IMG/VR virus record: IMGVR_UViG_3300043640_000096
Coordinates: 1 to 41,094 of that record
Length of the DNA stretch: 41,094 bases
Direction: 5' to 3' (one strand)
Source of the DNA: a virus
Shown here: positions 1 to 40,825 of the stretch, piece by piece
Layout of the letters: each line of letters starts with the position of its first letter
Position numbering within the stretch: position 1 is the stretch's first letter
Notes under the pieces: model-generated
Database searches by the model: none
What the model was told of the DNA's origin: nothing
What the model saw: the letters and a program-made list of their open reading frames with translations, nothing else
Program-made: the position numbers and the translations under genes

Positions 1-1
1 G

Positions 2-88
2 GACCTGGACGACCTCCGGAGCCAGATCCAGGCATGGCGCGACAGCGCCGACTACAACCCCGACGACGACGAAGCCCCCGGCCAGTGA
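2..88 (+). CDS. 3' end of MerR/Xis-like DNA-binding protein (partial, same gene as 40826-41053)
   Basis: Only the last 28 codons are present, ending ...DDDEAPGQ at a TGA (86-88). They are identical to the end of the gene at 40826-41053, because the window ends overlap. This is not a second gene copy. The stop codon lies in the loop of a terminator-like hairpin (74-99). Confidence 0.85.
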   Translation, partial: DLDDLRSQIQAWRDSADYNPDDDEAPGQ

Positions 89-99
89 AGGCCGGGGGC
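74..99 (+). terminator. hairpin overlapping the stop codon of the Xis-like gene
   Basis: Perfect 10-bp stem GCCCCCGGCC (74-83) / GGCCGGGGGC (90-99) with loop AGTGAA, which contains the TGA stop of the gene. There is no U-tract, as is common for actinobacterial terminators. The same hairpin is present in the right-end copy (about 41039-41064). Confidence 0.6.
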
Positions 100-119
100 G
101 GAAGTTGCTGAAGTTAGAA

Positions 120-150
120 GGGCCGGTCGAGTTCGCACCCCGACCGGCCC
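120..150. terminator. second hairpin, probable bidirectional terminator
   Basis: Perfect 10-bp inverted repeat GGGCCGGTCG (120-129) and CGACCGGCCC (141-150) with an 11-nt loop. It lies between the rightward Xis-like gene and the leftward small exported-protein gene ending at 250, so it could stop transcription from both sides. The window ends exactly at the end of the left arm (129/41094). Confidence 0.55.
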
Positions 151-249
151 GTTGCTAACGAACACCGCCCTGGCAGGCGGATGACACCCAGGAGAACCTT
201 CGTGAACCCCAAGACATCCGCGCAAGCGGCGTTCGCGACACGCCGGATC

Positions 250-435
250 CTACCGGCGGTCGTAGGCGGTAGCGGTCACGGCAGGCGCCCCACCGACGCT
301 CGTGGCCCCGGTGTCCGCCGTCGGGCTGAGCAACGCCGACGCACCGACGAGGGCGAACAGGACAGCGGCGACGATCGTGCGCGTCGCCGAGCAGGCGAAC
401 GACACCTTCGTCTTCGACGGCTTCGTGGCTGACAT
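250..435 (-). CDS. small exported or membrane peptide (61 aa)
   Basis: ATG start with a GAGAGG ribosome-binding sequence about 9 nt upstream. The protein has a short basic N-terminus (three Lys in the first 10 residues), a hydrophobic segment at about 20-37 that reads as a signal peptide or single membrane anchor, then a low-complexity Ala/Thr/Gly tail. There is no recognisable domain. It lies downstream of the other exported protein in the leftward lysogeny region, so it may be expressed from the prophage and act at the cell envelope. That role is inference from position only. Confidence 0.55.
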   Translation of the reverse strand: MSATKPSKTKVSFACSATRTIVAAVLFALVGASALLSPTADTGATSVGGAPAVTATAYDRR

Positions 436-539
436 TGCTCGCGCCTCTCAGGGTGGGTTCATAGCTCGTATCGGAGCGGCGGCCCGGCCAGTTACCGGAC
501 GCGGGCGACTGTCGAGGATCTGTCCAGTTGGCTCGGGCC

Positions 540-572
540 GGGTGGCTGCCGCACCCCGTGAGACAGCCACCC
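540..572 (-). terminator. hairpin after the exported protein gene
   Basis: Perfect 9-bp stem GGGTGGCTG (540-548) / CAGCCACCC (564-572), 7 bp past the stop of the leftward gene at 579-1124. It is placed as a terminator for that gene. The rest of 436-578 shows no gene; it holds only the leader of the 61-aa gene. Confidence 0.55.
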
Positions 573-578
573 GACGCT

Positions 579-1124
579 CTACTGCACGTCCACCTCGGTG
601 ACGTGAGCCTTGAGCTTGGTGGAGCTGGACGGGGTCTGGGCGATCACCTCGTCGCCGGTGCACTGACCCGCCACACAGTCGATCGTGTGGACCTGCGCGC
701 CGCTCTGGTCGCCGGTCAGGTCGTAGGTGATGCTCAGCGTGACGTCGTCCAGATCCGACAGGTCGCCCCCGTAGGTCACGCTCGCGTCGGCCGTGATGTT
801 GCAGCCAGCCGAGCCGAAGCACTCCTTGTCGGTGGTCTTCATGGCGATCGTGAAGTCGGCGGCGCTGAACGTGGGCGCGTCGGTGGTCGGCTCGGGCAGC
901 GCGGAGAAGTCCCCCGCGGGAACGCCGGCCGGCGTGACGTTGCTGGCCGGACCGGCAGGCTGGCCGCCTCCGGCGATACCGCCCGCGACACCGAGGACCG
1001 CGATGACACCGACGATGCCGCCGAGGACCCATGGCCACTTGCGGTGCTTCTTCGGCGCGGGCGGAGTGGCCTGCGGCTGCCACGACGGCGGCTCCCAGCC
1101 CTGCGGATACTGCGATTCGGACAT
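579..1124 (-). CDS. membrane-anchored or exported protein next to integrase (181 aa), candidate lysogenic-conversion/exclusion factor
   Basis: The Pro/Gln-rich cytoplasmic N-terminus (1-25) and the basic KKHRKW stretch precede one hydrophobic helix (about 31-52). An outside domain follows with four cysteines (C102, C108, C150, C155), which could form two disulfides. The start is the ATG at 1124, 8 nt after a GGGGAG ribosome-binding sequence; the reading frame is open further upstream but lacks one there. This Pro-rich-tail, one-helix, exported-domain layout is common in actinobacterial envelope proteins of unknown function. Its place beside int, in the direction expressed from a prophage, suggests a lysogeny-stage product such as a superinfection-exclusion protein. 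No sequence feature proves this. Confidence 0.7.
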   Translation of the reverse strand: MSESQYPQGWEPPSWQPQATPPAPKKHRKWPWVLGGIVGVIAVLGVAGGIAGGGQPAGPASNVTPAGVPAGDFSALPEPTTDAPTFSAADFTIAMKTTDKECFGSAGCNITADASVTYGGDLSDLDDVTLSITYDLTGDQSGAQVHTIDCVAGQCTGDEVIAQTPSSSTKLKAHVTEVDVQ

Positions 1125-1180
1125 GAAATTCTCCCCAGATGAGTGATGCACTGTGATCGTGCGGATGTTGCGGATAGTTA

Positions 1181-1210
1181 CCGGGTGGTGAGACATCGGC
1201 TATCACCCGG
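1181..1210. promoter_or_regulatory. inverted repeat upstream of the exported-protein gene
   Basis: CCGGGTG (1181-1187) pairs with CACCCGG (1204-1210) across 16 nt, about 60 bp upstream of the ATG at 1124. It may be an operator or part of the leader of that gene. No convincing -35/-10 pair could be assigned, so this is weak. Confidence 0.25.
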
Positions 1211-1257
1211 CGTGTGTCGATGCTGGTTGGCGGGCAGTGGGCGGGGCTACGGTGAGC

Positions 1258-1294
1258 GCGGGGACCTCGGCGGTAACAGCGCCGAGGTCCCCGC
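1258..1294 (-). terminator. strong hairpin downstream of integrase
   Basis: A 15-bp perfect stem, GCGGGGACCTCGGCG (1258-1272) / CGCCGAGGTCCCCGC (1280-1294), with a 7-nt loop. It lies 75 bp past the integrase stop codon and before the next leftward gene, so it most likely ends the repressor-integrase transcript. It lacks a U-tract. The attachment site may also lie in this 1125-1368 gap, but no att core can be recognised from one sequence. Confidence 0.65.
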
Positions 1295-1368
1295 CTCGTC
1301 GGGGTGGATCGGCCGGATGGTGGGCCGCGGCTCCGGGGTCCGGGGAGCAAGCGCGTCGGCACCATGGG

Positions 1369-2319
1369 TCACCTCCTTCGTCGTCGGGTTTCCAGTAGGC
1401 CGAGCGCTGTGCCGTGGCTGGTCGCCACCTCGCGGGCTCGGTCCGAGTTGATCTCGGTGTAGAGCGCGGTCGTCGCCGGAGTGGCGTGACCCATCATTTC
1501 CTGCACCACACGCAGATCAGCCGACACATCGAGCGAGCGCGTCGCGAACGAGTGCCGCAGCTGGTGCGCGGTGCACGTGATGCCCAGACCACGCAGGTGA
1601 TCACCCACCACATTGGACACGTACCGGGGCGTCACCGGGTGACCGTCCGGCCAGCGGAACAGGCGGCCCTGCCGATCCATCCACGGCCGCAGCAACGTCA
1701 CCAGCTCGCCGTCGACCGGGATGACCCGCTCCTTGTTGCCCTTCCCGATGACCACCAGCCGCGGCTTGTCATCGTCGATGATCCAGTCCCGGCACATCCA
1801 CGCCACCTCACACGAACGCAGCCCGGCGTAGCGCATCAGCGCGAGCCAGCAGCGCAACTCGTTGCTGGGGCAGTAGATGAAGGCCCGCATCACGTCCGGC
1901 TCGGGCACCGGCCGCGGCCGACGAGCGGGGACCTTCGGGGCGACCAGATCCTCGGCCGGGTCCACTTCTATCCAGTGCATGATCCGCTTGGACCAGCGGA
2001 AGTAGCAGCGGACTCGGGCCAGGTCGCCGGCGACCGTGCCGGCCGCGTTGGTGGCGATCGAGTGCTGCCATTTGAGAAGATCCTCGGTCGTTGCGTCGAG
2101 GACCCGGATCGGGTAGAGGACGTCCTTGAGCTTGCCCAGCGTGTAGTAGTAGTTCTCGATCGTGCGTTCACTGAGCTTGCGAGCCCGAAGTGCGTCGAGG
2201 TAGGTCTGGATGGCGGCCTCGCTGTCGGGCGATTGACGTAGCGGCATAGCCCCAGAGTGTGCGCGTCGTCTACGCCGTTTGTCCGGTTCGATACCGGCCA
2301 GCAGCATTTGGTCAGCCAC
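1369..2319 (-). CDS. int: tyrosine-type site-specific integrase (316 aa)
   Basis: Catalyses integration of the phage circle into the host chromosome through a Tyr-DNA intermediate. All catalytic residues are readable: Arg168 (YAGLRSCEV), Lys193 (GKGNKERVIPV), His252 and Arg255 (HQLRH), His278 (MMGHA) and nucleophile Tyr287 (ALYTEI). A SAM-like core-binding domain spans about 30-120, with ERTIENYYYTLGKL typical of that domain; the C-terminus is RRRRR. The start is the GTG at 2319, 6 nt after GGGG and inside the 3' end of the repressor gene (8-nt overlap), which suggests translational coupling. Internal ATGs at residues 5 and 25 are alternatives. A strong hairpin follows the gene. This is the only integrase in the window; no serine integrase was seen. 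Confidence 0.95.
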   Translation of the reverse strand: MADQMLLAGIEPDKRRRRRAHSGAMPLRQSPDSEAAIQTYLDALRARKLSERTIENYYYTLGKLKDVLYPIRVLDATTEDLLKWQHSIATNAAGTVAGDLARVRCYFRWSKRIMHWIEVDPAEDLVAPKVPARRPRPVPEPDVMRAFIYCPSNELRCWLALMRYAGLRSCEVAWMCRDWIIDDDKPRLVVIGKGNKERVIPVDGELVTLLRPWMDRQGRLFRWPDGHPVTPRYVSNVVGDHLRGLGITCTAHQLRHSFATRSLDVSADLRVVQEMMGHATPATTALYTEINSDRAREVATSHGTALGLLETRRRRR

Positions 2320-2809
2320 ATTTCACCCCAATGGCCGCCGGGTCATTTCGCTCCCCGGATCGTTGGTCCAGGTAGAGGCGTAGGTCCACAACCCTGCCCG
2401 TACCAGCGAGGGTGCGCGCAGGCCGATTGAGCTGCGGAAAGAGGATGATCGTGGCGTCGCCATCAGCGTCACCACAACGGCGAGTTGACCTGAGAGTGCC
2501 CCCTTGAGGAGTCCCCCCGTCAGTGCCGGTCGCGGCCAGGAATGGCTCCGTGTCCATGGTCTCGAAGTACGCCACGAACTCACTCGTGCGCCGGCCGAAT
2601 ACCAGTGGATCGGCCAGGCCGAGCACGTTCGCGAACGTGACCATGTCGGTCGTCGTCCAGTCCTGCTTGCCATTCGCGAGCCGATTGATAGACGCGGCGT
2701 CCCTGCCGAGATGACGGGCCAGCCGAGCTTGGCTGATCCGTTTCATCTCTAGCGCGAGTCGCAGGTTGTCGCCCATCTGTCGGCGCATCTCGCTCACATC
2801 CATGGCCAT
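2312..2809 (-). CDS. XRE-family immunity repressor (165 aa)
   Basis: DNA-binding repressor expected to hold the prophage silent. A lambda-repressor-type helix-turn-helix covers about residues 14-65 (RISQARLARHLGRDAASINRLANG). The C-terminal half is Gly/Arg-rich, with no LexA-type Ser/Lys protease, so induction by self-cleavage is unlikely. The start is taken as the ATG at 2809, with a second in-frame ATG two codons on; no good ribosome-binding site precedes it. A -35-like TTGACG lies at 2839-2834 on the minus strand, but the -10 is unclear. The gene runs leftward, divergent from the Cro-like gene, and overlaps int by 8 nt. CTTGAG/CTCAAG half-sites fill the intervening region and are its likely targets. 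Confidence 0.8.
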   Translation of the reverse strand: MAMDVSEMRRQMGDNLRLALEMKRISQARLARHLGRDAASINRLANGKQDWTTTDMVTFANVLGLADPLVFGRRTSEFVAYFETMDTEPFLAATGTDGGTPQGGTLRSTRRCGDADGDATIILFPQLNRPARTLAGTGRVVDLRLYLDQRSGERNDPAAIGVKCG

Positions 2810-2825
2810 AGCGTGACACAAGACC

Positions 2826-2849
2826 CTTGAGACCGTCAAGGATCTTGAT
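2826..2849. promoter_or_regulatory. candidate operator for repressor autoregulation
   Basis: Alternating half-sites CTTGAG (2826-2831), GTCAAG (2835-2840) and CTTGAT (2844-2849), each 3 bp apart. The inner pair forms TCAAG-GAT-CTTGA. They lie just upstream of the repressor start and overlap its -35-like TTGACG, so binding here would affect the repressor's own transcription. The half-site sequence matches the operator at 2886-2911. Confidence 0.6.
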
Positions 2850-2879
2850 CAGACTCACTCGACTGGAGTCTTTTCACTC

Positions 2880-2911
2880 TTGACCCTTGAGCCATGCTCA
2901 AGTATCTTGAG
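2880..2911 (+). promoter_or_regulatory. early rightward promoter with embedded operator
   Basis: -35 TTGACC (2880-2885), a 17-bp spacer and -10 TATCTT (2903-2908). The spacer begins with CTTGAG (2886-2891) and ends with CTCAAG (2897-2902). Another CTTGAG (2906-2911) makes a perfect 6-3-6 palindrome, CTCAAG-TAT-CTTGAG, over the -10 box. Expected transcription starts at about 2914-2916, at the ATG (2915) of the Cro-like gene, so that message is probably leaderless. A near copy occurs at 9461-9492 (28 of 32 positions identical). Confidence 0.8.
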
Positions 2912-2914
2912 CAT

Positions 2915-3133
2915 ATGACGACCCCTATGGCACGCCACGCCACCTACGCCCTCGGTCAGGACGTAGTCGAGTGGCTGGCGCGACGACGCGAAGCAGGCTG
3001 CACCTGGGAGGAGCTGGCGACACAACTCGCCCAGGCCACTGGGGGTCAGGTCAACACGACCTACGAGACAGTCCGCACCTGGCTGGGCGCAATGCCCGCC
3101 GGCCCGCGGCCGCCTGTCGAGCAGGCGTCATAA
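2915..3133 (+). CDS. Cro-like small DNA-binding protein (72 aa), probably leaderless
   Basis: First rightward gene of the early operon, divergent from the repressor. Residues about 27-57 (CTWEELATQLAQATG then TTYETVRTWLG) read as a helix-turn-helix, which fits a Cro or early-switch protein. The start is the ATG at 2915. An upstream in-frame ATG at 2894 lies inside the promoter spacer, upstream of the expected transcription start, and is rejected. No ribosome-binding site is needed if the transcript is leaderless, as is common in Actinobacteria. A hairpin follows 7 bp past the stop. Confidence 0.7.
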   Translation: MTTPMARHATYALGQDVVEWLARRREAGCTWEELATQLAQATGGQVNTTYETVRTWLGAMPAGPRPPVEQAS

Positions 3134-3140
3134 CGCACAA

Positions 3141-3171
3141 CGCCCCGGCGACCACGTGGATCACCGGGGCG
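3141..3171 (+). terminator. hairpin after the Cro-like gene
   Basis: CGCCCCGG (3141-3148) / CCGGGGCG (3164-3171), 8-bp stem. The loop contains the palindrome CCACGTGG (3152-3159), which could itself pair. It may partly terminate the early transcript and so act as an attenuator before the rest of the operon. Confidence 0.5.
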
Positions 3172-3176
3172 GAGCG

Positions 3177-3208
3177 AGCGAAGGACCGGCCACCAACCGG
3201 CCTTCGCT
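3177..3208 (+). promoter_or_regulatory. second hairpin, possible attenuator or leader structure
   Basis: AGCGAAGG-A-CCGG (3177-3189) pairs with CCGG-CCTTCGCT (3197-3208) with one bulged A and a 7-nt loop. With the preceding hairpin it makes a two-hairpin element in the 113-bp gap before the gene at 3247. It may be an anti-termination target or processing site; function unknown. Confidence 0.4.
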
Positions 3209-3246
3209 GAACAGCTTACCGAACGACCCGAGCGAAGGACACCACT

Positions 3247-3525
3247 ATGGCCACCACCGACCCCGACAGAGAGATCAGCGCCAAGCTGGCCGCCGCACAC
3301 CACGCGCTGGCCGCCCTCACCACGCCCATTGTCGTCGCCGCGGACTTCTCGTGGGAGCACCACTGGTCCGCGATCGCCGCGACCGAGACCGAGATCGCGC
3401 TGCTGCACCAGCAGCGAGCCGACCGCGAGCCGGCTGACACCGAGGCCGCGGCGTGCGCCGCGCACTACCACCGTAGGGCCACCACCAGTCGCAAGTGGGC
3501 GGCCCAGGCTGCGGTGCAGTCGTGA
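3247..3525 (+). CDS. hypothetical protein (92 aa)
   Basis: ATG start with a GAAGGA ribosome-binding site 8 nt upstream. Mostly helical and Ala-rich, with His pairs (HH at about 18-19 and 38-39) and a charged central region. No domain recognised. First gene after the two-hairpin leader; its TGA overlaps the GTG of the next gene (GTGA), so the following genes are probably translated in series. Confidence 0.65.
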   Translation: MATTDPDREISAKLAAAHHALAALTTPIVVAADFSWEHHWSAIAATETEIALLHQQRADREPADTEAAACAAHYHRRATTSRKWAAQAAVQS

Positions 3526-3779
3526 TCGCCACGGTTACGGGGCGCCACGCGAGACCGCCGTCGCTGGTCACGTTCCTCCGCTGGGTGATCGCCTGCCTGG
3601 ACGCCTGGATTCTGGGCGCCACCGGCGGCCGGCACGAGGCAGCTGTCCGCCCCGTGGCACCGCGTCCCGAGTTCGGCGCCGACCCGGAGTGGGGCGACAC
3701 CCTGCGCAGCTGGGCCATGGACGGCTGGGACCGCGCGATGTTGATGCCGTCGTCCGACGACGCCGACGGCGGTGCGTGA
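3522..3779 (+). CDS. hypothetical protein (85 aa)
   Basis: GTG start overlaps the previous stop as GTGA. A moderately hydrophobic stretch at about 18-33 (LVTFLRWVIACLDAWI) may be an amphipathic or membrane-associated helix; the C-terminus is acidic. Not recognised. The next ATG overlaps its TGA by one base. Confidence 0.6.
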   Translation: MIATVTGRHARPPSLVTFLRWVIACLDAWILGATGGRHEAAVRPVAPRPEFGADPEWGDTLRSWAMDGWDRAMLMPSSDDADGGA

Positions 3780-3937
3780 TGGCCAGGGAACTGCCGAACC
3801 AGGCCACCCGCAAAGAGATCAAGGCGTCGATCGCCAAGCAGGTCAAGGAGATCACGCACTCCGACCAGACCGCGCTCGGCATCTCCACCGACGACGCCCT
3901 CGACGCCATCCAGCGCGGCAGGGAGGCAGGCAAGTGA
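3779..3937 (+). CDS. hypothetical small helical protein (52 aa)
   Basis: Starts at the ATG that shares one base with the previous TGA (TGATG). Lys-rich N-terminal half (ATRKEIKASIAKQVKEI) and acidic C-terminal half; predicted all helical. No family recognised. The coding frame is supported by G/C-rich third positions and tight stop-start coupling on both sides. Confidence 0.6.
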   Translation: MARELPNQATRKEIKASIAKQVKEITHSDQTALGISTDDALDAIQRGREAGK

Positions 3938-4095
3938 TCGCCTCCTTCTTGCACACCTGGGCCACCATCGGCCACCACGCCGGACCGGTGGCCTTGCACG
4001 TCGGCCCGTTCGTACTCCTCGCCCTGGCGCTCATGTGGTTCCGCCGCTGCCTGCGGAACCTGCGCCGCGACAACCACCCACGGGGGAAGCGATGA
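3934..4095 (+). CDS. small single-pass membrane protein (53 aa)
   Basis: GTG start overlapping the upstream stop (GTGA). One hydrophobic segment at about 19-35 (GPVALHVGPFVLLALAL) is followed by a basic tail (RRCLRNLRRD), which suggests an N-out/C-in inner-membrane peptide. Ends overlapping the nuclease start (ATGA). Function unknown. Confidence 0.6.
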   Translation: MIASFLHTWATIGHHAGPVALHVGPFVLLALALMWFRRCLRNLRRDNHPRGKR

Positions 4096-4901
4096 CCACC
4101 ACAACGCGCCGCCCGGCCAAGGCCGCACCCAAGCGCACGTCCGGCTACTACAACACGCCCGGCGGCAAGCTCATGTCCGTCACCACCATCCTCGGCGCCG
4201 GCATCCCCAAGCCCAACCTCGTCCACTGGGCCGCACTCGAAGTCGCCAAGTCCGCCGTCGACAACCTGCCCACGCTCGTCAAGGTCCGCGGGCAGCGGCA
4301 GCGCGACGAGGCCGTCAACTGGCTCAAGCGCGCCGCCGAGTCCAAGCGCGACACCGCCGCGAACCTCGGGTCCGCCGTCCACGCCGCGGTCGAGTCGCTG
4401 ATCCTCGGCGAGCCGAAGGCCGAACCCACCGACGACCAGCGCCCGTTCCTGGCCGCGTTCGACCGGTTCTGCGCCGACTGGCGGCCGCAATGGGAGGCGA
4501 CCGAGATGGTCGTCGCCAACCCGGACGACGGCTGGGCGGGCACCGCCGACTGGTGGGCGACCATCCCCGGCCTCGGCGCGGCGCTCGTGCTCGGCGACTG
4601 GAAGACCGGCAAGGGCGTCTACGCCGAAGCCGCCTTGCAGCTGTCCGCGTACCGGCGGGCCACCGTGGGGTGGCTGAAGGACGGCACCCAGGTCGAGCCG
4701 CCGCACGCCGACCGCGCCGTCGTCGTGCACCTTCGGCCGGGCAAGTACCCGGACACCGGGTACCGCGTGGTGCCGCTGGACACCAGCGACGCCGCCTACG
4801 CCGCGTTCCGCTCGGCGCAGCAGGTGGCCGAGTACGTGAAGACCCTGGCCGACCAGCTCGTCGGAGACCCCATCAGTCCTGTGGTTGAGGCGGTGGCGTG
4901 A
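4092..4901 (+). CDS. RecB/Cas4-like PD-(D/E)XK nuclease (269 aa)
   Basis: Predicted DNA exonuclease of the RecB/Cas4 nuclease superfamily, probably used in phage recombination or replication. The motif series is readable in order: GSAVHAAVE (His97, Glu101), GTAD (Asp153), GDWKTG (Asp169, Lys171) and QLSAY (Gln183, Tyr187). These are the His, GxxD, GDhK and QxxxY motifs of the family. No cysteine cluster is visible, so it lacks the Fe-S site of true Cas4. The start is the ATG at 4092 (ATGA overlap). It is followed by a small Cys-rich gene and the gp3-like gene, so they may form a DNA-processing unit. Confidence 0.85.
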   Translation: MTTTTRRPAKAAPKRTSGYYNTPGGKLMSVTTILGAGIPKPNLVHWAALEVAKSAVDNLPTLVKVRGQRQRDEAVNWLKRAAESKRDTAANLGSAVHAAVESLILGEPKAEPTDDQRPFLAAFDRFCADWRPQWEATEMVVANPDDGWAGTADWWATIPGLGAALVLGDWKTGKGVYAEAALQLSAYRRATVGWLKDGTQVEPPHADRAVVVHLRPGKYPDTGYRVVPLDTSDAAYAAFRSAQQVAEYVKTLADQLVGDPISPVVEAVA

Positions 4902-5065
4902 TGGATCTGTGCAAGTGGTGCACCGACTCATGCGTCGTGCACGGCGACGGCTGCGACGAGATGCAGCAGTGGATGGAGTACTGGGACGGCTTGAGCGACG
5001 AGGACAAGCGCGACGAGATGCGCTCGATGGATGCCTACACGAACTCGATCCGAGGGGAACGGTAA
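4901..5065 (+). CDS. small Cys-rich protein (54 aa)
   Basis: Short gene between the nuclease and the gp3-like gene. ATG at 4901 shares one base with the previous TGA; the TAA (5063-5065) overlaps the next ATG. Residues 4-18 hold four cysteines (CKWC, then C11 and C18 with His14), a possible zinc knuckle. The rest is acidic and helical (EMQQWMEYWDG). Function unknown; perhaps an accessory to the adjacent DNA-processing proteins. Confidence 0.65.
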   Translation: MDLCKWCTDSCVVHGDGCDEMQQWMEYWDGLSDEDKRDEMRSMDAYTNSIRGER

Positions 5066-6090
5066 TGCCGATCATCACTCTCCAGCGCCGTTCCCGCGAG
5101 CTTGGCCGGATCCGCACGGGCCAGGTCGTCAAGGGCAACAACGGCCGCTCGCGTCCGTCCAAGCTCGACCGCTTCCGGCTCACCAGCCCGTCGAAGGATC
5201 TGCTCGACAAGGTGGCCGCCCTGTACGGCGGCACCGTCGAGGCGTGGACCCCGCAGAACGGCGGCCCCTCCCAATGGGAAGTCGTCACCGAAGCCACCCG
5301 GCTCCCCGTCCTCGTCCCGCCGCAGCCCGTGTCCCAGTACTTCGAGCAGTGGTCCGGCGGTGGCTGCGTCCGCCGCTGCGACGGCGAGCGCGAGCTGCTG
5401 TCCGACCAGCCGTGCCTGTGCTCCGTCGACCCCGCCGAACGCGACTGCAAACCCACCACCCGCCTCAACGTGGTACTGCGCGACGTCGAAGGCATCGGCG
5501 TGTGGCGCCTGGAATCCCACGGCTACTACGCCGCCACCGAACTACCGGAGGTCGCCGAGTTCCTCGCCCGCGCCGCCGGCTACGTCCAAGCGTGGCTCAC
5601 GCTCGAAGAGCGGATCGTCAAGCGCAACGGCGAGACCCGCCGCTTCATGGTCCCCGCCCTCGAAGTAGACATCACCCCGGCCCAGTTGATGGCCGGAGGC
5701 GGCCAGGTCGCCGCGATCGAGTCCTCACCCGGTGCGGCCGTGCCCGCGTTGCCGGCCGCACCGGTGAAGTTGGACATGGACTCGTTCCTCACCGCCGTCG
5801 AGGCAGCCACCACGGTCGCCGACGTACGCGCGCTGTGGAAGGAAGCCGCCGCGTCCGGCGTGCTGGACGAGGACGTGACGGCCGTGCTGAAGGCGAAGGC
5901 CGACCGGCTCGCCGTCCCGGCCGCGGCGTCCGGTGACCCGGACGAGATGTGGCAGCGGGTGCTGCGCAGCGCGCCGGACGGCTGGACCTCGCAGCAGTTG
6001 GAGGAGCACTTCGAGCAGACCGTGGGCGTCGACGCCGGGTCTGCGACTGCCGCCGAGATGGTGGCCTACCTGGAGAAGGTGACGGCATGA
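5065..6090 (+). CDS. phiC31 gp3-like (recombination directionality factor family) protein (341 aa)
   Basis: Start ATG 5065 (TAATG overlap). The N-terminal 210 residues match the phiC31/phiBT1 gp3 type: MPIITLQRR start, RFRLTSPSKDLLDKVA (37-52), YGGTVEAW (54-61), RLNVVLRDVEGIGVWRLESHG (about 133-153) and RFMVPALEVDITPAQL (193-208). Cysteines C101, C105, C117, C119 and C128 suggest a metal site. Residues 215-341 are a linker plus a helical extension absent from the short phage factors. In phiC31 this protein switches a serine integrase to excision. Here the only integrase is a tyrosine enzyme, so a different or broader DNA role is likely; the nuclease neighbour suggests replication or recombination. 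Confidence 0.8.
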   Translation: MPIITLQRRSRELGRIRTGQVVKGNNGRSRPSKLDRFRLTSPSKDLLDKVAALYGGTVEAWTPQNGGPSQWEVVTEATRLPVLVPPQPVSQYFEQWSGGGCVRRCDGERELLSDQPCLCSVDPAERDCKPTTRLNVVLRDVEGIGVWRLESHGYYAATELPEVAEFLARAAGYVQAWLTLEERIVKRNGETRRFMVPALEVDITPAQLMAGGGQVAAIESSPGAAVPALPAAPVKLDMDSFLTAVEAATTVADVRALWKEAAASGVLDEDVTAVLKAKADRLAVPAAASGDPDEMWQRVLRSAPDGWTSQQLEEHFEQTVGVDAGSATAAEMVAYLEKVTA

Positions 6091-6287
6091 CCCACGCACT
6101 CGCGGTCGCCTGGTTCATCATCTCGGCCTGCGTCGCCGAGTCCGGCCTGTCCCCGCTCACCGTGCTCGCCTGCCTGCTGATCACCGGCGGCTGCTTCCTG
6201 GCAGCCGGTGCCCTGTGGCGCATGGAGCGCAACGAGCGGTCCGCCCAGGTTGTCGAGGACGCCACCAGAGAAGAGGTCCAGCTGTGA
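6087..6287 (+). CDS. small two-helix membrane protein (66 aa)
   Basis: ATG overlaps the previous stop (ATGA). Two hydrophobic segments at about 3-18 (HALAVAWFIISACVAE) and 22-44 (SPLTVLACLLITGG...AGALW), then a charged cytoplasmic tail. Unknown function. Ends overlapping a GTG that begins another reading frame. Confidence 0.6.
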   Translation: MTHALAVAWFIISACVAESGLSPLTVLACLLITGGCFLAAGALWRMERNERSAQVVEDATREEVQL

Positions 6288-6462
6288 CCCAGTTGCGCGT
6301 CCGGCCGCTCTACGGACGCCGTGCGCGGCGTGCGGACAGGCCGCCAACGGCATGCTCACCGAAGTTTCCTGGACCCGCGTCTACCACCAGGCCGCCATTC
6401 AGCCCTGCGACATCGGCACGCCACCACGCTGGGCCTCCAAGCTGCGCAAGCAGGACATGTGA
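6250..6462 (+). CDS. small zinc-finger-like protein with unclear start (possible frameshift)
   Basis: Strong coding signal from about 6319 to the TGA at 6460-6462: PCAACGQAANGMLTEVSW then YHQAAIQPCDIGTPPRW, with C-x2-C and a third Cys, like a small zinc ribbon. No in-frame ATG or GTG lies at the expected GTGA junction (6284). The coordinates use a TTG at 6250; alternatives are GTG 6208 or ATG 6352. The GTG at 6284 is in another frame, so a one-base shift near 6310 would join a normally placed start to this frame. The start is therefore uncertain. Confidence 0.45.
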   Translation: MSRTPPEKRSSCDPVARPAALRTPCAACGQAANGMLTEVSWTRVYHQAAIQPCDIGTPPRWASKLRKQDM

Positions 6463-6662
6463 CCGCCCGCCGCCGCCCGTGGGGAGCCTGCCCCACCAGC
6501 AAGATCCGCTGGCGCAACCGCAAGGCAGCGCTCGCAGCGATCGACACCCACCGCAACCGGTGGCGAGGTCCGCGGGAAGCGTTCCCCAACCTGTGGGTCT
6601 ACCGCTGCCCGGCGTGCAAAGGCTGGCACTTCACGTCCAAGCCGCAGGAAGAGGCGTCATGA
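6459..6662 (+). CDS. small CxxC/WH protein (67 aa)
   Basis: GTG start overlapping the previous TGA. Basic N-terminus (TARRRPWG) with Cys11, helical middle, and C-terminal YRCPACKGWHFTSK (about 49-62) with Cys-x2-Cys and a nearby His. Such short CPxCxxWH proteins are widespread in actinophages, without known function; metal binding is likely. Ends overlapping the whiB start (ATGA). Confidence 0.65.
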   Translation: MTARRRPWGACPTSKIRWRNRKAALAAIDTHRNRWRGPREAFPNLWVYRCPACKGWHFTSKPQEEAS

Positions 6663-6979
6663 CCACCACCGAGCCACGCACGCCGCGCGACAGAACCCCG
6701 CGGCTGAGGGAATCGGCCTCGCTCGTCATCCACCGCGTCGACGTGTCCTGGATGGACCGCGCGGCGTGCCGGGACGAGGAACCCGAGCTGTTCTTCACCG
6801 GCGGCGACCACGACATGACCGACCAATGGCGCACGATCGAGGCCCGCTCGGTCTGCCGGCTCTGCCCCGTCCAGGTCGAGTGCCTGCGCTACGCCATCGC
6901 CATCAAGGCCGACGGCGTGTGGGCAGGCACCACACCCCAGCAGCGCAAGGCGCTCGAACCCAAGCAGGCCACCGCATGA
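6659..6979 (+). CDS. WhiB-family transcription regulator (106 aa)
   Basis: WhiB proteins hold a 4Fe-4S cluster and regulate transcription with the main sigma factor in Actinobacteria. The four ligands are Cys37, Cys66, Cys69 and Cys75 (C-x28-C-x2-C-x5-C), and the turn motif GVWAGT is at about 86-91, followed by a basic tail. ATG 6659 overlaps the previous stop. Phage WhiB copies (for example TM4 WhiBTM4) can act as dominant versions of host WhiB2 and can block superinfection; whether this one does is inference. The family strongly supports an actinobacterial host. Confidence 0.93.
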   Translation: MTTTEPRTPRDRTPRLRESASLVIHRVDVSWMDRAACRDEEPELFFTGGDHDMTDQWRTIEARSVCRLCPVQVECLRYAIAIKADGVWAGTTPQQRKALEPKQATA

Positions 6980-7221
6980 CCGGCGACGACCTGACGCAGG
7001 CACTGCTGCCCGCACTCACCGACCTGATCATGGCCGTGCACACCCACGACCGCGACGCCGTCGCCGAGGCGTTCAACGCCGCCTCCGCCGTCACCGGTGA
7101 CCCACTCGCCGCCGCCACACACCTCGCCGTACTCGGCGCGGCACTGGGACGGCCAGACCTGACACTGCGCGTCCAGCTCGGCTGGACCGTGCTCGACCCG
7201 ATGGGAGCGCTCAACGCATGA
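6976..7221 (+). CDS. hypothetical helical protein (81 aa)
   Basis: ATGA overlap with whiB. All-helical Ala/Leu-rich protein (LLPALTDLIMAVHTHDRD, then AATHLAVLGAALGRPD) with no cysteines and no known motif. It lies between WhiB and the replication protein, so it might regulate or assist either; no direct evidence. Confidence 0.6.
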   Translation: MTGDDLTQALLPALTDLIMAVHTHDRDAVAEAFNAASAVTGDPLAAATHLAVLGAALGRPDLTLRVQLGWTVLDPMGALNA

Positions 7222-8024
7222 CCTGGTTCAAGGTGGACGACGCCTTCTACCGTGGCCGCAAGGTCCGGCGGCTCGGCGTCGACCGCATCCCCGCCGTCGG
7301 GGTATGGACGCTGGCCGGCAACTGGGCCGCGGACAACCTGGAGAACAACATCGCCGACGGGTTCGTGCCCTGGGAGATCGTCCAGCAGTGGGACCCGAAA
7401 CGGCGCTACGCCAAGCGCCTCATCGATGTCCACCTGTGGGACGAGGTCGAGCACGAAGGGGAACCGGGCATCCAGTTCCACGACTGGGCCGACTGCAACC
7501 CGACCAAGGAGGACCGGGCCGCCGAGCGGGAAGTGTGGCGCGCCAAGAAGGCGGCACAGCGGGCACGCAAGGAACCATCCGAAGATCCACTGTCCCCAGG
7601 GGACTCCCCCGAGACACCACCAGAGACTCCACCGGAGAGTCCACCAGAGACTCCCGAGGGAGTCCACCAGGGAGTCTCGAAAAGTTCCGGACCCCATTCC
7701 CGTCCCGTCCCGTCCCGTAGTACTGGGTCACCTAGGGGGGTTAGTCACGTAAGTAGCCGCGCGGGCGAAGAACGCCCCCCCGAACGCTGCCCCAAGCACG
7801 CCAACGACACCGATCCGCCGCCCTGCGGAGCCTGCGCCGACGCTCGTCGTGCCGCGGCACGCTGGGACGAGACCCACCACCAAGACGCCAAAGCCGCCGT
7901 CCGGGCCTGCACGCTGTGCGACGGCGACGGCTGGCGCTACATCGACCCAGCCCTCCGCAGCCACGGCCTCCGATCCGGTCCCGGCGCTCGCTGCGACCAC
8001 GTCCGCGAGCCGGTCAACGCATGA
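7218..8024 (+). CDS. replication initiator-like protein with central repeats and C-terminal zinc fingers (268 aa)
   Basis: The N-terminus MTWFKVDDAFYRGRKVRRLG, continuing through VGVWTLAGNWAADN, is the winged-helix-type domain seen in phage replication initiator/replisome-organiser proteins. A basic helix (about 97-118) leads to a Pro/Glu linker with PETP repeats (about 131-147), then a low-complexity Ser/Arg stretch. A C-terminal region carries cysteines C191, C203, C206 and CTLCDGDGW (about 231-239). The linker is encoded by 12-bp direct repeats and a CCCGT run, as in lambda O where the origin lies inside the gene. No helicase loader is visible next to it. Start ATG 7218 overlaps the previous stop. 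Confidence 0.7.
   Translation: MTWFKVDDAFYRGRKVRRLGVDRIPAVGVWTLAGNWAADNLENNIADGFVPWEIVQQWDPKRRYAKRLIDVHLWDEVEHEGEPGIQFHDWADCNPTKEDRAAEREVWRAKKAAQRARKEPSEDPLSPGDSPETPPETPPESPPETPEGVHQGVSKSSGPHSRPVPSRSTGSPRGVSHVSSRAGEERPPERCPKHANDTDPPPCGACADARRAAARWDETHHQDAKAAVRACTLCDGDGWRYIDPALRSHGLRSGPGARCDHVREPVNA
7611..7679. repeat. 12-bp iteron-like direct repeats, candidate replication origin
   Basis: Units spaced 12 bp apart: GAGACACCACCA (7611), GAGACTCCACCG (7623), GAGAGTCCACCA (7635), GAGACTCCCGAG (7647), then GGGAGTCCACCA (7658) and GGGAGTCTCG (7670). The core is (G)AG-A/G-GTCC or ACTCC. They lie in frame in the middle of the replication protein gene, just before a CCCGT repeat and a locally less GC-rich stretch. 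Confidence 0.5.
7699..7718. repeat. four tandem CCCGT pentamers beside the iterons
   Basis: CCCGT repeated four times without interruption. Downstream (about 7715-7760) the gene uses codons rare elsewhere in this phage (AGT, ACT, TCA, CCT, GTA), the sort of compositional break expected for a DNA element rather than a conserved protein segment. Together with the iterons this is a plausible origin core. Confidence 0.45.
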
Positions 8025-8218
8025 CCGACCGCCGCCTGCACGCCGTCCCGGCCACCGTCGCCGAAGACCTCGCCGCCCAAGACGCCTCACTCGACGAGAA
8101 GTGCCCGCGGTGCGGCGCCGAACGCGACGCCTACTGCGTCAACGACCAGACCGGCCAGCACCTGCACAACCGCACCAGCCACTGGCAACGACTACCCACC
8201 ACCAAGGAGCGCTCATGA
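8021..8218 (+). CDS. small zinc-finger protein (65 aa)
   Basis: ATGA overlap. KCPRCGAERDAYCVN (27-41) with Cys28, Cys31 and Cys39, followed by LHNRTSHWQR giving histidines. This CPxCGA...C...H layout matches a common actinobacterial small zinc-finger family of unknown role. Possibly a DNA-binding accessory in replication, judging only by neighbours. Confidence 0.7.
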   Translation: MTDRRLHAVPATVAEDLAAQDASLDEKCPRCGAERDAYCVNDQTGQHLHNRTSHWQRLPTTKERS

Positions 8219-8922
8219 TCCGCATCCCCACCCGCGACCTCGTCGGCCTGCTCACCGACCTCGCGCTCACCGCCGCCGACCCGGCCACCGCCGGAGCCAC
8301 AGCCGGCGTGCTGCTGCACACGGCCCGCGGCTACCTCGGCGGCTCGCCCGGCCAGGTCGATCTGTTCGTCGGCACCTCGACGGACGGCGTGATCCTGGGC
8401 CACGCACACATCGCGTGCTCCGGTCAGGACGAGCCGATGCTGTGGCCCATCGCCGCCGTCAAGGACGTCATCGCCGTGCTCAAGCCGAAAGCGAAGATCG
8501 ACGACCACGTCACCGAGATCACCCGCGAAGGCGACGACATCACGCTCGCCGAGGACCCGGACCTGTTCGGCGAAGGCGCCCGGTTCACCTTCGGCGGCCT
8601 CGACCCGGTGGAGTGGCCCACCGAGGACGCGCGGCAGATGCTCGCCGAGATCAGCATGTCGCCGCCCGAAGGCAGCCAGCCACCAGCGCCGCGCATCGAC
8701 TTCCTGGCCGCCCGCCTCACGCCGTTCCTGTCGATCGCCTCGCGTCGCAAGGAGATCCTGCAGACGTTCCGCTACCACCAGCGGCTGCCGATGAGCGTGC
8801 AGATCGGCGACCACTACCGCGGCGTCGTCAACCCGTTCAGGTTCAACGACGAGAAGCCGACCGCCGGTTACGCGCCCTCGGGCGACGTGTTCCCGCTCGT
8901 GCTCGACGGCGTGCCCGCGTGA
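8215..8922 (+). CDS. hypothetical protein, possible sliding-clamp-like (235 aa)
   Basis: ATGA overlap. N-terminal MIRIPTRDLVGLLTDLALTA, the segment VDLFVGTSTDGVILGHA (48-64) and a C-terminal beta-rich part resemble the repeated fold of DnaN-type clamps in arrangement only; no diagnostic motif is conserved enough to be sure. Residues 70-160 include an acidic region (EDPDLFGEGARF). It sits between the replication protein and RusA, so a replication role is likely. The clamp call is tentative. Confidence 0.45.
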   Translation: MIRIPTRDLVGLLTDLALTAADPATAGATAGVLLHTARGYLGGSPGQVDLFVGTSTDGVILGHAHIACSGQDEPMLWPIAAVKDVIAVLKPKAKIDDHVTEITREGDDITLAEDPDLFGEGARFTFGGLDPVEWPTEDARQMLAEISMSPPEGSQPPAPRIDFLAARLTPFLSIASRRKEILQTFRYHQRLPMSVQIGDHYRGVVNPFRFNDEKPTAGYAPSGDVFPLVLDGVPA

Positions 8923-9404
8923 GCGCCGAACCCCTGCCGCTCGCCCTGGCCACGGACGCGCTCGTCGTGTTCGTGGCCGGGCGGCCGGCCCCGCAGGGCA
9001 GCAAGCACGCCCGCCCGATCTACCGCGGCCGCGGCGACGCTCGCGAGTTCACGGGCAAGGTGGCGCAGGTCGAGTCCAGCAAGAACGTCGGCACCTGGCG
9101 CGACGACGTACGCACCGCGCTGCTCGACGAGCACGGCCAGCCCCGGTGCGTGCTCGGCGATATGCCCACCGGCGTCCGCCTGGAGTTCGTCATGCCCCGC
9201 CCGACCAGCACGCCCAAGCGATCCACGCCCGCAGCCATCCGCAAGCCGGACCTCGACAAGCTGGTCCGCGCCGTGTTCGACGCGATCACCAGTTCCGGCT
9301 GCATCGCCGACGACGCCCGCATCGTCCAGCTCAACGCCTCCAAGCGGCTGGCGGAGCTGGGTGAGACCGCCGGCTGCCACATCCGGATCGAGGCGCTGGC
9401 CTGA
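8919..9404 (+). CDS. RusA-family Holliday junction resolvase (161 aa)
   Basis: Cleaves four-way DNA junctions as a Mg-dependent dimer. The family signature is clear: KPDLDKLVRAVFDAI (109-123) with Asp111 and Asp113, then IADDARIVQLNASKR (129-143) with Asp131, Asp132 and Lys142. An N-terminal beta strand with PAPQGSKHARP (24-33) is also typical. GTG start overlaps the previous stop (GTGA). It is the last gene of the first early operon and is followed by a perfect palindrome. Confidence 0.9.
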   Translation: MSAEPLPLALATDALVVFVAGRPAPQGSKHARPIYRGRGDAREFTGKVAQVESSKNVGTWRDDVRTALLDEHGQPRCVLGDMPTGVRLEFVMPRPTSTPKRSTPAAIRKPDLDKLVRAVFDAITSSGCIADDARIVQLNASKRLAELGETAGCHIRIEALA

Positions 9405-9430
9405 CCCGACGCGGAGATTCAACCCCGAAG

Positions 9431-9450
9431 CAACCCGTTGCAACGGGTTG
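9431..9450. terminator. perfect 20-bp palindrome between the two early operons
   Basis: CAACCCGTTG followed directly by its reverse complement. As RNA it would form a stem with almost no loop, so it may be a protein-binding site rather than a terminator. It sits 10 bp upstream of the -35 of the next promoter and 26 bp past the RusA stop, so either role is possible. Confidence 0.5.
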
Positions 9451-9460
9451 AGGCTAACGC

Positions 9461-9492
9461 TTGACTCTTGAGATGTGCTCAAGTATCTTGAG
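9461..9492 (+). promoter_or_regulatory. second early promoter with the same operator
   Basis: -35 TTGACT (9461-9466), a 17-bp spacer bounded by CTTGAG (9467-9472) and CTCAAG (9478-9483), -10 TATCTT (9484-9489) and a further CTTGAG (9487-9492). 28 of 32 positions equal the element at 2880-2911, with identical spacing. Unlike the first copy, transcription would start about 25 bp upstream of the ATG (9521), which has a GAGGGAG ribosome-binding site. Confidence 0.8.
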
Positions 9493-9520
9493 AGGCACAC
9501 CAAGAGCGAGGGAGCACCAG

Positions 9521-9769
9521 ATGACCACCACCATCCTCAGCCGCGAGTTCATCGAGGCGTTCGGCGACGACGACATGACTGACGCCGAGATCCGCGAGTT
9601 CTGCGTCGGCAACTCCCACGCACTGGTGGTCGCGGAGTACTCGTCCACGTCGGCCCGCTGCGCCTGCGGTTCGACGCTGACGCTGCTGGCCAACGGCCGC
9701 TGGGTGCATGGCAGCACCAAGAGAGTCGCGTGCCCGCCCTACGAGTGCGAGTGCGGCCGTCGCCACTGA
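9521..9769 (+). CDS. small Cys-rich protein (82 aa), first gene of second early operon
   Basis: ATG 9521 with ribosome-binding site GAGGGAG. The N-terminal 35 residues are helical and acidic (DDDMTDAEIREF). The C-terminal half is a zinc-ribbon-like domain with CACG (47-50) and CECG near the end. Unknown function. As the first gene under the repeated repressor-type promoter, it would be made together with the Cro-like protein. Confidence 0.7.
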   Translation: MTTTILSREFIEAFGDDDMTDAEIREFCVGNSHALVVAEYSSTSARCACGSTLTLLANGRWVHGSTKRVACPPYECECGRRH

Positions 9770-9848
9770 CCACCCGCCTGGACGAAACCGCGTGAGCGGT
9801 CGCCGGAACAGAGGCCGGCCTGACGAGTCCCGAACCGAGGAGCCCCCG

Positions 9849-10070
9849 ATGACCATCTCCTGGACCCGCAACGCGGACGGCACCGGGACCACCACTCACG
9901 CCGACGTGCCCGCGGCGCCCATCCCCAACCCGGCCCGTGTCGAGGTCCGCGAGTCGCCCCGCGAGACCGCTGCCCGTCTGCTGGCCGACCACCGCACCGC
10001 CTGCATCCACGCCAAGGACGACGGGCCCTTCGACCCCCGCGACGACGAGCCCACCGACTACGAGAAGTAG
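9849..10070 (+). CDS. hypothetical protein (73 aa)
   Basis: ATG 9849 with GAGGAG 7 nt upstream. An in-frame GTG at 9792 would add 19 residues but lacks such a site. N-terminal Thr-rich strand region, then a helix with RETAARLLADHRTACIHAKD (about 38-57) and an acidic end. Not recognised. Confidence 0.6.
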   Translation: MTISWTRNADGTGTTTHADVPAAPIPNPARVEVRESPRETAARLLADHRTACIHAKDDGPFDPRDDEPTDYEK

Positions 10071-10077
10071 GAGCGAC

Positions 10078-10416
10078 ATGACCACCGACGGCTTCGACAG
10101 GCCGACCGACGTGACCGAACTCGACCTCGCGTTCCCCGGCGCCATCCGCGCCTTGATGCCTCCGTACTACGACATCCCGAAGGACTTCCGGGGCGGCCTG
10201 AGTGGATCCGGCGACGCCAAGCCGTGGCGGCAGTTGCAGGCGGAGTGGATGTTCGTCGGCATTACGAAGGACGCCGTGACGCCCAAGACGGGCATCGACG
10301 TCAACAAGGCGTGGCAGCACCTGTCGTGTGTGCAGCGCTCGTTCGAGCCGAAGCACCAGCACAAGGAAGCGGCTGTGGCGTGGCTGATGTCGCGCTGGTT
10401 CGACCTGACCACCTGA
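10078..10416 (+). CDS. hypothetical protein (112 aa)
   Basis: ATG 10078 after TAGGAG. Conserved-looking core: AWQHLSCVQRSFEPKHQHKE (about 80-99), then AVAWLMSRWF at the C-terminus. The residue mix suggests a folded globular protein, but no family is recognised. Confidence 0.6.
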   Translation: MTTDGFDRPTDVTELDLAFPGAIRALMPPYYDIPKDFRGGLSGSGDAKPWRQLQAEWMFVGITKDAVTPKTGIDVNKAWQHLSCVQRSFEPKHQHKEAAVAWLMSRWFDLTT

Positions 10417-10452
10417 CCCCCTGACCACTCGCACCACCGAAGGGACCACCCG

Positions 10453-10794
10453 ATGAGCGCCGCCACCCTGCCCACTCTCGCCGAGCACATCGACGAGCAC
10501 GACCTGTCGTGGGCCCACATCCACGACCACCACAGCAAGCTCGCGGTTCAACTGTCCGACGGCGCATTCGAGGACCTGGCCCGCTGGGCCGTGACGTTCG
10601 AGGCGGACGCGATGTGGAGGGTCGGAGACTTCCGCGGAGAAGCGGACGGCTGCTGGCATGTGCACGCCATCGGCAGCGTGGACGGCGACCTGGAGGTGTG
10701 GTGCGCGGTGCCCGCCGACTTCGCTCCGAACGCCGAGGCCCTGGAGCAGCGGCTGAGGATGGCCGCGACCGCCGCCGACCTCGCCGCCCGCTGA
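10453..10794 (+). CDS. hypothetical protein (113 aa)
   Basis: ATG 10453, ribosome-binding site GAAGGGA 9 nt upstream. Alternating strands and helices with His-rich HIHDHHSKLAVQLSD (about 22-36) and a Trp-rich middle (MWRVGDFRGEADGCWHVHAIG). Not assigned to a family. Confidence 0.6.
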   Translation: MSAATLPTLAEHIDEHDLSWAHIHDHHSKLAVQLSDGAFEDLARWAVTFEADAMWRVGDFRGEADGCWHVHAIGSVDGDLEVWCAVPADFAPNAEALEQRLRMAATAADLAAR

Positions 10795-10811
10795 CCCGAG
10801 AGGACACCCCG

Positions 10812-11231
10812 ATGAGCGACAACCGCAGCCTCGCCGAATCCGCCCAGCGCGCGCGTGACGCCAGCCGGATCGCTGAGCAACTCACGCCGCCGACAGTGGC
10901 CAGCTTCGTCGCAGGCACCCTGCGCCGCTACGCGAACGCGCTGGACAACGGCCACGGCCAGGGAAGCCACCTGTGGGAGCCGATGGTGGACGACCTGCTG
11001 GCTGGCGGCGAGGACGGCGACAAGCCGCACACCGACAACGACGGACCGCGCGTCCTGCGTGACCGCGACGGCAACCTGTGGACGGTCGTGTTGCCCACCG
11101 TCGTCAGCCTGCGTGAGTACCACGGCGAGACGCCATCGGTGTCCATGCAGGTGAACATCGAGGAAGTGCGCAAGCACTACGGCCCGCTGTCCGAGGTTCC
11201 CGCTGCTGTGTCCCCGGCAGGTGAGCGGTGA
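10812..11231 (+). CDS. hypothetical protein (139 aa)
   Basis: ATG 10812 with GAGAGGA ribosome-binding site. The helical N-terminal half (ARDASRIAEQLTPPTVASF) is followed by a strand-rich part with VLRDRDGNLWTVVLPTVV. No catalytic motif visible. Its TGA overlaps the next GTG. Confidence 0.6.
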   Translation: MSDNRSLAESAQRARDASRIAEQLTPPTVASFVAGTLRRYANALDNGHGQGSHLWEPMVDDLLAGGEDGDKPHTDNDGPRVLRDRDGNLWTVVLPTVVSLREYHGETPSVSMQVNIEEVRKHYGPLSEVPAAVSPAGER

Positions 11232-11455
11232 GCCGCCGCCGTATCGAGCGCCTGCGCTGGCGCATCGCCCGCCTCATCAACGCGCTCCCTGGCCCGCTCG
11301 CGCAGTGCTGGCCGCCCCTGTGGTCGTGGGTCCAGGACGGGCCCACCGACGGCAATCGGCTGCCGTGGGCCCGCGTGTCCCCGTACTGCCGACAGGACCG
11401 CGACGAGATCGGCCTCTGCTACTGCGGCAAGTTGCGCGCCCAGTCCACCCGCTGA
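11228..11455 (+). CDS. small basic protein with C-terminal CYCGK (75 aa)
   Basis: GTGA overlap with the previous gene. Arg-rich N-terminus (SRRRIERLRWRIARL), Trp-rich centre and a C-terminal short cysteine motif (LCYCGKLR) with one more Cys at about 54. The basic helix suggests nucleic-acid binding. Not recognised. Confidence 0.55.
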   Translation: MSRRRIERLRWRIARLINALPGPLAQCWPPLWSWVQDGPTDGNRLPWARVSPYCRQDRDEIGLCYCGKLRAQSTR

Positions 11456-11516
11456 CCACCTGTCCGGCGAGGCCCCGCACCCCGGCCCCGCCACCCCGAC
11501 ACGACAAAGGAACGAC

Positions 11517-11906
11517 ATGACGACTATCGAGACCATCCGCGACTGGCTCATGACGATGGGCGGCAACCGGTCCATCGGCAACGACGACACATACGAGAAC
11601 AGCGAGAACGCCGAGGAGGCCCTGCGCGCCGTCGCCGACCTCCACGCCGAGGTCCGCATCTTCGACGAGTGCGAACACGAGCACACCGAGGACGACGTCA
11701 AGGCCGGTCGCGCGTTCAACGTCTCCGAGGTCGGCTACGTCTGCCAGGACGGCTACCGCTACTCGATCTGCCGCGAGTGCTGCCGAGACGGCGACTACCA
11801 GACCGAGGGCTGCGCCACCTACCACGAGCACACCGCCGACGGGCCGCAGTGCCCGACTGTGCACGCCATCGCCCAGAAGCTGCAGATCGTGCCCGTCCCC
11901 GCCTGA
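11517..11906 (+). CDS. Cys/His-rich protein (129 aa)
   Basis: ATG 11517 with AAAGGAA ribosome-binding site. Seven cysteines (52, 76, 85, 88, 89, 99, 112) and several histidines (54, 56, 103, 105, 116) point to one or two zinc sites; SICRECCRDGDY is the densest part. Acidic N-terminal helix. No family recognised. Confidence 0.6.
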   Translation: MTTIETIRDWLMTMGGNRSIGNDDTYENSENAEEALRAVADLHAEVRIFDECEHEHTEDDVKAGRAFNVSEVGYVCQDGYRYSICRECCRDGDYQTEGCATYHEHTADGPQCPTVHAIAQKLQIVPVPA

Positions 11907-11949
11907 CCCCCGTCTCACCTGACCCACCCCGAACCTGGAGGACCGCGGC

Positions 11950-12255
11950 ATGACAGCAATCCGCAACGTCCCGATGTTCGACAAGCCCGCCGAGCAGCCG
12001 GTGCAGCTCAGTGCGCACCTGGCCGCGTTCGCCTACCTCCTGGCCCGCGGCGAGACGGCGAAGTGGACGCAGATCAAGCTCAAGACCTACCGGCCGTGCG
12101 AGGAGTGCGCCTGGGTGCAGCACGAGAGCCGCGGCGACTTCGGACCGAAGCGGCAGGCGAAGCATCGCCGCCGGCACCCGATGGGCCCGCAGCTGGAGCT
12201 GTGCACGGCCCACATGAAGCTCTGGAAAGAACGCGACGAGAGGGATGCGGCATGA
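11950..12255 (+). CDS. small zinc-finger-like protein (101 aa)
   Basis: ATG 11950 after CTGGAGG. Helical N-terminus, then RPCEECAWVQHE (Cys50, Cys53), a very basic stretch (KRQAKHRRRH, 68-76) and LCTAHMK (Cys85, His88). The C-x2-C...C-x2-H order fits a zinc ribbon with a basic arm, likely nucleic-acid binding. Ends with ATGA overlap. Confidence 0.6.
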   Translation: MTAIRNVPMFDKPAEQPVQLSAHLAAFAYLLARGETAKWTQIKLKTYRPCEECAWVQHESRGDFGPKRQAKHRRRHPMGPQLELCTAHMKLWKERDERDAA

Positions 12256-12740
12256 CTGAGCCGGAGATCGACTGGCAGGGGCGACACGCCAGGCTGCTCG
12301 AGACTGCCGAGCGTCAGGCGACCACTGCGCGCGAGCAAGCGGAGCGCATCCGCGAGCTCATCGGCGACCGCGACAAGGCTCAGTCGCAGACCGAGGCGGC
12401 CTACGACCTGGCCGCGCAGTACGCACGCAAAGCCGGGCACGACATCGACCGGGACGACGTCCTGCGGTACATCGAGCAGTACTGGGCGATGCGCAGCGGC
12501 TTCGAGAAGCGGACGACCGAGCTGGAGACGTTCCACTGGGACGTGCACCTGATAGCTACCGAGTTGACGCAGGGCATGCAGGCCGGTCGCGCCGGCGACG
12601 TGTCGGGCGCTGAGCTGGCGGCCAAGATCGTTGCCCGGATCAAGGCGATCAGCCCGTACGGCGGCAGGCAAAAGGCGGCCGAGCTGTTCCCGCGGCCGAC
12701 GCCGCCCGCCGCCCAGACGTTGCTCGAGGAGGCATCGTGA
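12252..12740 (+). CDS. coiled-coil hypothetical protein (162 aa)
   Basis: ATG overlaps the previous stop. Residues about 10-60 form a long charged helix (ARLLETAERQATTAREQAE) with coiled-coil character. More helices follow, ending in a Pro-rich tail (FPRPTPPAAQ). No cysteines. Possibly oligomeric; function unknown. Confidence 0.6.
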   Translation: MTEPEIDWQGRHARLLETAERQATTAREQAERIRELIGDRDKAQSQTEAAYDLAAQYARKAGHDIDRDDVLRYIEQYWAMRSGFEKRTTELETFHWDVHLIATELTQGMQAGRAGDVSGAELAAKIVARIKAISPYGGRQKAAELFPRPTPPAAQTLLEEAS

Positions 12741-18805: not shown

Positions 18806-18816
18806 GGGGGCGGCAT

Positions 18817-40818: not shown

Positions 40819-40825
40819 GCTGGTC

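Follow-up and report, generated by a model that had tools for sequence, protein, structure and literature searches.

In a temperate actinophage (IMG/VR record IMGVR_UViG_3300043640_000096), nearly the same short element stands beside a presumed immunity repressor gene and again 6.6 kb away, raising the question of whether one repressor could control two operons of the phage in the same way. We addressed it across the window, i.e., the whole stretch of DNA analyzed, which is 41,094 nt long.

One promoter-operator ahead of two operons

Comparing positions 2880-2911 and 9461-9492, we found 28 of the 32 bases identical and the spacing equal, exactly as the initial annotation had claimed; first-order Markov sequences as long as the window (100 in all) gave best matches of 18-21 of 32 to the first copy (site A). 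Both copies were also recovered by a sigma-70 consensus scan of positions 1-16000 that was blind to this finding: it returned exactly two promoters, beginning at 2880 and 9461, where 0.5 were expected, each scoring 9 of 12 consensus bases with 17-bp spacing. The elements are laid out as follows.

2880-2908, plus strand: promoter A, with the -35 hexamer TTGACC (2880-2885), a 17-bp spacer and the -10 hexamer TATCTT (2903-2908)
9461-9489, plus strand: promoter B, with TTGACT, 17 bp and TATCTT; predicted start at ~9496
2877-2911, plus strand: candidate composite operator O-A, a degenerate palindrome (2877-2891, at the -35) and a perfect one (2897-2911, at the -10), 5 bp apart
9458-9492, plus strand: candidate composite operator O-B, a degenerate palindrome (9458-9472) and a perfect one (9478-9492), 5 bp apart as in O-A

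Each site thus consists of two 15-bp palindromes, perfect over the -10 and degenerate over the -35 (2 mismatches at 2877-2891 and 3 at 9458-9472), whose centers lie 20 bp, or about two helical turns, apart. The perfect CTCAAG-TAT-CTTGAG palindrome that had been proposed to cover the -10 is present in both copies, and the 17-bp spacer reads CTTGAG-N5-CTCAAG precisely as described. Throughout the window, perfect CTCAAG-N3-CTTGAG occurs at these two positions only. When up to three mismatches were allowed, 21 sites were observed against 10.4 expected (sd 3.5); with up to two there were six, five of them inside the two control regions and the sole exception at 18410.

The four differences between the copies fall on the last base of the -35 and on three of the five linker bases, and similarity ends at the edges of the element. 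Since the changes are confined to these positions and the perfect palindrome is invariant, the pattern points to selection on binding and promoter bases rather than to recent copying. A recent duplication of the element was accordingly rejected, as homology stops at the element ends and the linker differs. That one promoter-operator is present twice, ahead of two operons, is well supported.

A third composite site, the candidate repressor and the first gene

The genes and sites around the two elements are listed below.

2312-2809, minus strand: presumed immunity repressor, 165 aa, with an N-terminal XRE/Cro-C1 helix-turn-helix (residues ~5-65)
2817-2849, no strand assigned: candidate composite operator O-rep, just ahead of the repressor ATG (2809) and made of imperfect palindromes at 2817-2831 and at 2835-2849 with a 3-bp gap
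2915-3133, plus strand: opening gene of operon 1, placed where cro would be; 72-aa product with three predicted helices
3247-9404, plus strand: rest of operon 1, including the five genes that follow
4092-4901, plus strand: exonuclease
5065-6090, plus strand: Gp3-like recombination directionality factor
6659-6979, plus strand: WhiB
7218-8024, plus strand: replication initiator
8919-9404, plus strand: RusA
9431-9450, plus strand: perfect 20-bp palindrome CAACCCGTTGCAACGGGTTG between operons 1 and 2
9521-12255, plus strand: start of operon 2, small genes nearly all without a family match, continuing towards the terminase

Beside the repressor gene, the initial annotation had placed related half-sites at 2826-2849. 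Their relatedness to site A holds (GACCCTTGAG matches at 10 of 10 positions and TCAAGnATCTTGAnCA at 14 of 16), but they are more than half-sites: two 15-bp palindromes, with one mismatch in 2817-2831 and two in 2835-2849, make up a third composite, and two such palindromes arose in 0.015% of local dinucleotide shuffles. Because O-rep does not line up with the hexamers of promoters A and B, the shared sequence exceeds a promoter consensus. Its position at the start of the repressor gene makes autoregulation of the repressor through O-rep likely; no convincing promoter for the repressor itself was found by sequence.

The repressor gene, whose stop codon falls within the region where the integrase gene (1369-2319, minus strand) starts, was assigned to the XRE helix-turn-helix proteins through PHROG matches to transcriptional repressors (7.5e-9 and 2.5e-8), with the Pfam match to HTH_31 (9.8e-6) falling below the cut-off at 26.2 bits against 27, HTH_26 at 6.4e-4, and the XRE fold matches being weak (HipB, C.BclI and P22 c2 the best; best E 2.9e-3). 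In a single-sequence AF2 model, the helix-turn-helix was usable over residues ~10-60 only and the C-terminal 100 residues gave nothing; Pfam did not recognize this C-terminal part as a CI/LexA peptidase. Using tblastn, no match to the repressor was found in phage records, nor was there one in viral or genome contigs. As this XRE-type gene adjoins composite copies and has one at its very start, the simplest reading is that the two operons share a repressor, with the adjacent XRE-type protein as the likely ligand of the palindromes.

The first gene of operon 1 had been called Cro-like, a label that did not hold up as a family assignment. Its 72-aa product is modeled by AF2 as three helices (mean pLDDT 67), and neither Pfam, PHROG nor structure comparison placed it in the Cro/XRE domain; lacking a helix-turn-helix family match and any significant structural match, the protein is Cro-like by position and predicted three-helix fold. 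One distant homologue, 43% identical (L066), was the only one that turned up across phage records and the viral and genome contigs. This protein might nonetheless be the main ligand, a Cro-type feedback repressor that late in the lytic cycle lowers expression of the two operons, while the XRE repressor acts elsewhere or at some sites only. In lambda, CI and Cro have common operators, and here the gene comes first behind promoter A and encodes three predicted helices; with no match to a helix-turn-helix family or structure, and with O-rep at the repressor start compatible with either reading, we judge it unlikely that the 72-aa protein takes this role from the adjacent repressor.

The two operons begin differently. 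The -10 of promoter A ends 7 nt ahead of ATG 2915, so the mRNA of the first gene would be leaderless (an alternative in-frame ATG, 2894, lies inside the promoter), in contrast to operon 2, which has a short leader with the ribosome-binding site GAGGGAG at 9508-9514. The first gene of operon 2 (9521-9769) encodes 82 aa with a cysteine-rich C-terminal half, and the operon heads towards the large terminase subunit (18499-20268). Between the operons, the palindrome at 9431-9450 has no T run, and the RNA around it folds at z = -2.2; it is possibly an attenuator or terminator, or else a site for an unrelated protein, and could weaken read-through from operon 1.

Several other features of the window were observed. 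Its ends (1-129 and 40966-41094) carry a 129-base repeat with a single difference (position 100, G versus T), which includes a hairpin and the 3' end of a small helix-turn-helix gene, lies away from the repressor gene, and may reflect circular-assembly overlap or a duplicated attachment site. Five copies of a degenerate 19-nt repeat resembling GCAnnCGATG occupy 40717-40819, four of them spaced in 9-bp steps. They lie just ahead of a gene for a 75-aa MerR/excisionase-like protein (40826-41053) and are possibly a second set of regulator sites. Near the lysis region, a papain-family (C1) cysteine protease gene (38304-39011; Pfam E 2.6e-9) is followed by one whose product is glycoside-hydrolase-like and resembles Rv2525c; such cargo is unusual in a phage.

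The operator in relatives and in known systems

Related phages had been suggested as a place to look for the 32-bp pattern ahead of both operons. A search with the composite pattern came out negative: related contigs lack it, and phage records and the viral and genome contigs yielded no relative sharing this repressor or operator. The composite pattern matched once in IMG/VR, at a contig end and at chance level, and eight times in unrelated taxa among 84,980 GTDB genomes, about the chance expectation.

With the site unseen in related phages, its partner protein is not nameable by comparison, and the palindrome might instead be the site of a host regulator or an activator, the operons answering a host signal and not a phage repressor. 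We consider this very improbable, as a host regulon should yield more than those chance-level GTDB matches, none of which is titled actinobacterial, and as the sites cluster beside the phage repressor gene. That the promoter alone was duplicated, the palindrome being a by-product of TTGA-containing hexamers with no regulatory role, is scarcely credible even though the -35 and part of the -10 share bases with CTTGAC/CTTGAG half-sites, given that the symmetry is perfect at both sites, that all variable bases lie outside the perfect palindrome, and that the repressor start has two more palindromes, a pair seen in 0.015% of local shuffles.

Control by the phage's own XRE-type repressor can be set against known systems. 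Judged by the Gp3-like gene, the Streptomyces phages mu1/6 and VWB are the closest named phages, and both carry the integrase, repressor, divergent first gene, exonuclease and Gp3-like protein in the same order. In mu1/6, a TTCTAC-N7-GTAGAA dyad spans the spacer and the -10 of the first promoter; VWB has the related GTAGAAATGTG at its first promoter and a CTTCTACTT/AAGTAGAAG dyad at the repressor start. These operators are unrelated in sequence to CTCAAG/CTTGAG, and unlike the present phage, neither has a second copy of its first promoter before another operon. VWB also bears 10-bp repeats of the CTCACTGA type both at attP and between the repressor and the first gene (L082:59-178 and L082:2457-2491), which suggests a protein common to the integration and immunity regions.

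Among loci found through the replication initiator, four have other repeated promoter-like elements (L054, L057, L060 and L079), those of L060 and L079 being divergent promoter pairs. One related viral contig has the same promoter and leader twice, 9.7 kb apart (L054:5102-5155 and L054:14764-14817), with conservation extending into the 5' untranslated stretch. Another has four promoter-leader copies on the minus strand (GTAACTnATACnTACGTTAC region, L057:17292-19413), each adjoining the start of a small gene, an arrangement that resembles start-associated repeats. Repeated promoters thus occur in the wider group, which does not imply control by a common repressor.

The best precedent, and a tested one, is mycobacteriophage BPs, which the present case appears to work like. 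Its repressor, gp33, whose operators are OR, ORep, O6, O27, O55 and O61, binds five regions, one of them at its own gene, and regulates four promoters; it recognizes a 12-bp palindrome and a degenerate partner 5 or 8 bp off (PMC4557955). In both phages, the repressor gene diverges from the early lytic operon, a short perfect palindrome is joined by a degenerate partner (with a 5-bp gap at several BPs sites), and composites lie at the repressor gene and at the first lytic promoter, PR in BPs, where further promoters down-regulated in the lysogen also carry them (PMC4557955). At the level of sequence, the same operator is found here at an early lytic and at a further phage promoter, and the perfect-plus-degenerate arrangement recurs with a copy at the repressor gene, the gaps being 5 bp in O-A and O-B and 3 bp in O-rep, where both palindromes are imperfect. 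The two phages differ in operator sequence (CGACATATGTCG in BPs), in the number of regulated lytic promoters (four in BPs versus two found here) and in placement, with OR lying between the -35 and -10 and the perfect palindrome here over the -10. Immunity in BPs also depends on integration, which trims the repressor because attP lies within its gene; no attP was located in the present phage.

In lambda, too, a single repressor, CI, uses one type of operator for two lytic promoters as well as for its own promoter (summarized in PMC4557955). The present lytic promoters, in contrast to those at OL and OR, are 6.6 kb from each other and point in the same direction; each site has two palindromes instead of three, and the repressor's C-terminal part is not recognizable as the peptidase that CI carries.

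Several repressor-type sites per genome are also a feature of L5 and other cluster A mycobacteriophages, whose 20-30 asymmetric stoperators lie mostly away from promoters (PMC6550527). Here, the three composites are symmetric and all lie in control regions, and a stoperator reading was rejected, the sites being too few and symmetric. The proposal of a small regulon, one repressor for two early operons, is partly supported, being upheld in its twin promoter-operators. A multi-promoter regulon within a phage is already known (BPs, L5, phiC31 and lambda); the second copy itself is without counterpart in mu1/6 and VWB.

Proposed control of the two operons

The composite sites (three in all), both promoter matches and the gene context are read directly from the sequence, and from them we infer which protein binds, that it represses the operons and regulates its own gene, that operon 1 starts leaderless, and that transcription pauses or stops ahead of promoter B. 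The XRE-type repressor (2312-2809) would bind paired palindromes of consensus CTCAAG-N3-CTTGAG. In the lysogen, one dimer per palindrome would sit side by side over the -35 and -10 of A and B, excluding RNA polymerase, and a single repressor would in this way probably silence both operons. At O-rep, it would tune its own synthesis. Upon induction, promoters A and B would open together, A driving the first regulator and the recombination and replication genes and B the small accessory genes, so that operon 2 would be independent of read-through from operon 1 past 9431-9450. We hold this scheme as a whole, with an XRE repressor acting through composite operators on both operons and its own gene, to be quite probable. 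A more tentative and rather doubtful extension is that the duplicated promoter-operator replaces antitermination, operon 1 being stopped or weakened at 9431-9450 and transcription restarted at B, with both operons released simultaneously without an N-like protein.

These results provide a concrete candidate operator and three testable sites for an otherwise unstudied actinophage immunity system. Together with BPs, they suggest that paired palindromes at several promoters are a recurring actinophage solution, and since the second copy is absent from the nearest named phages, such regulons may be easily gained or lost.
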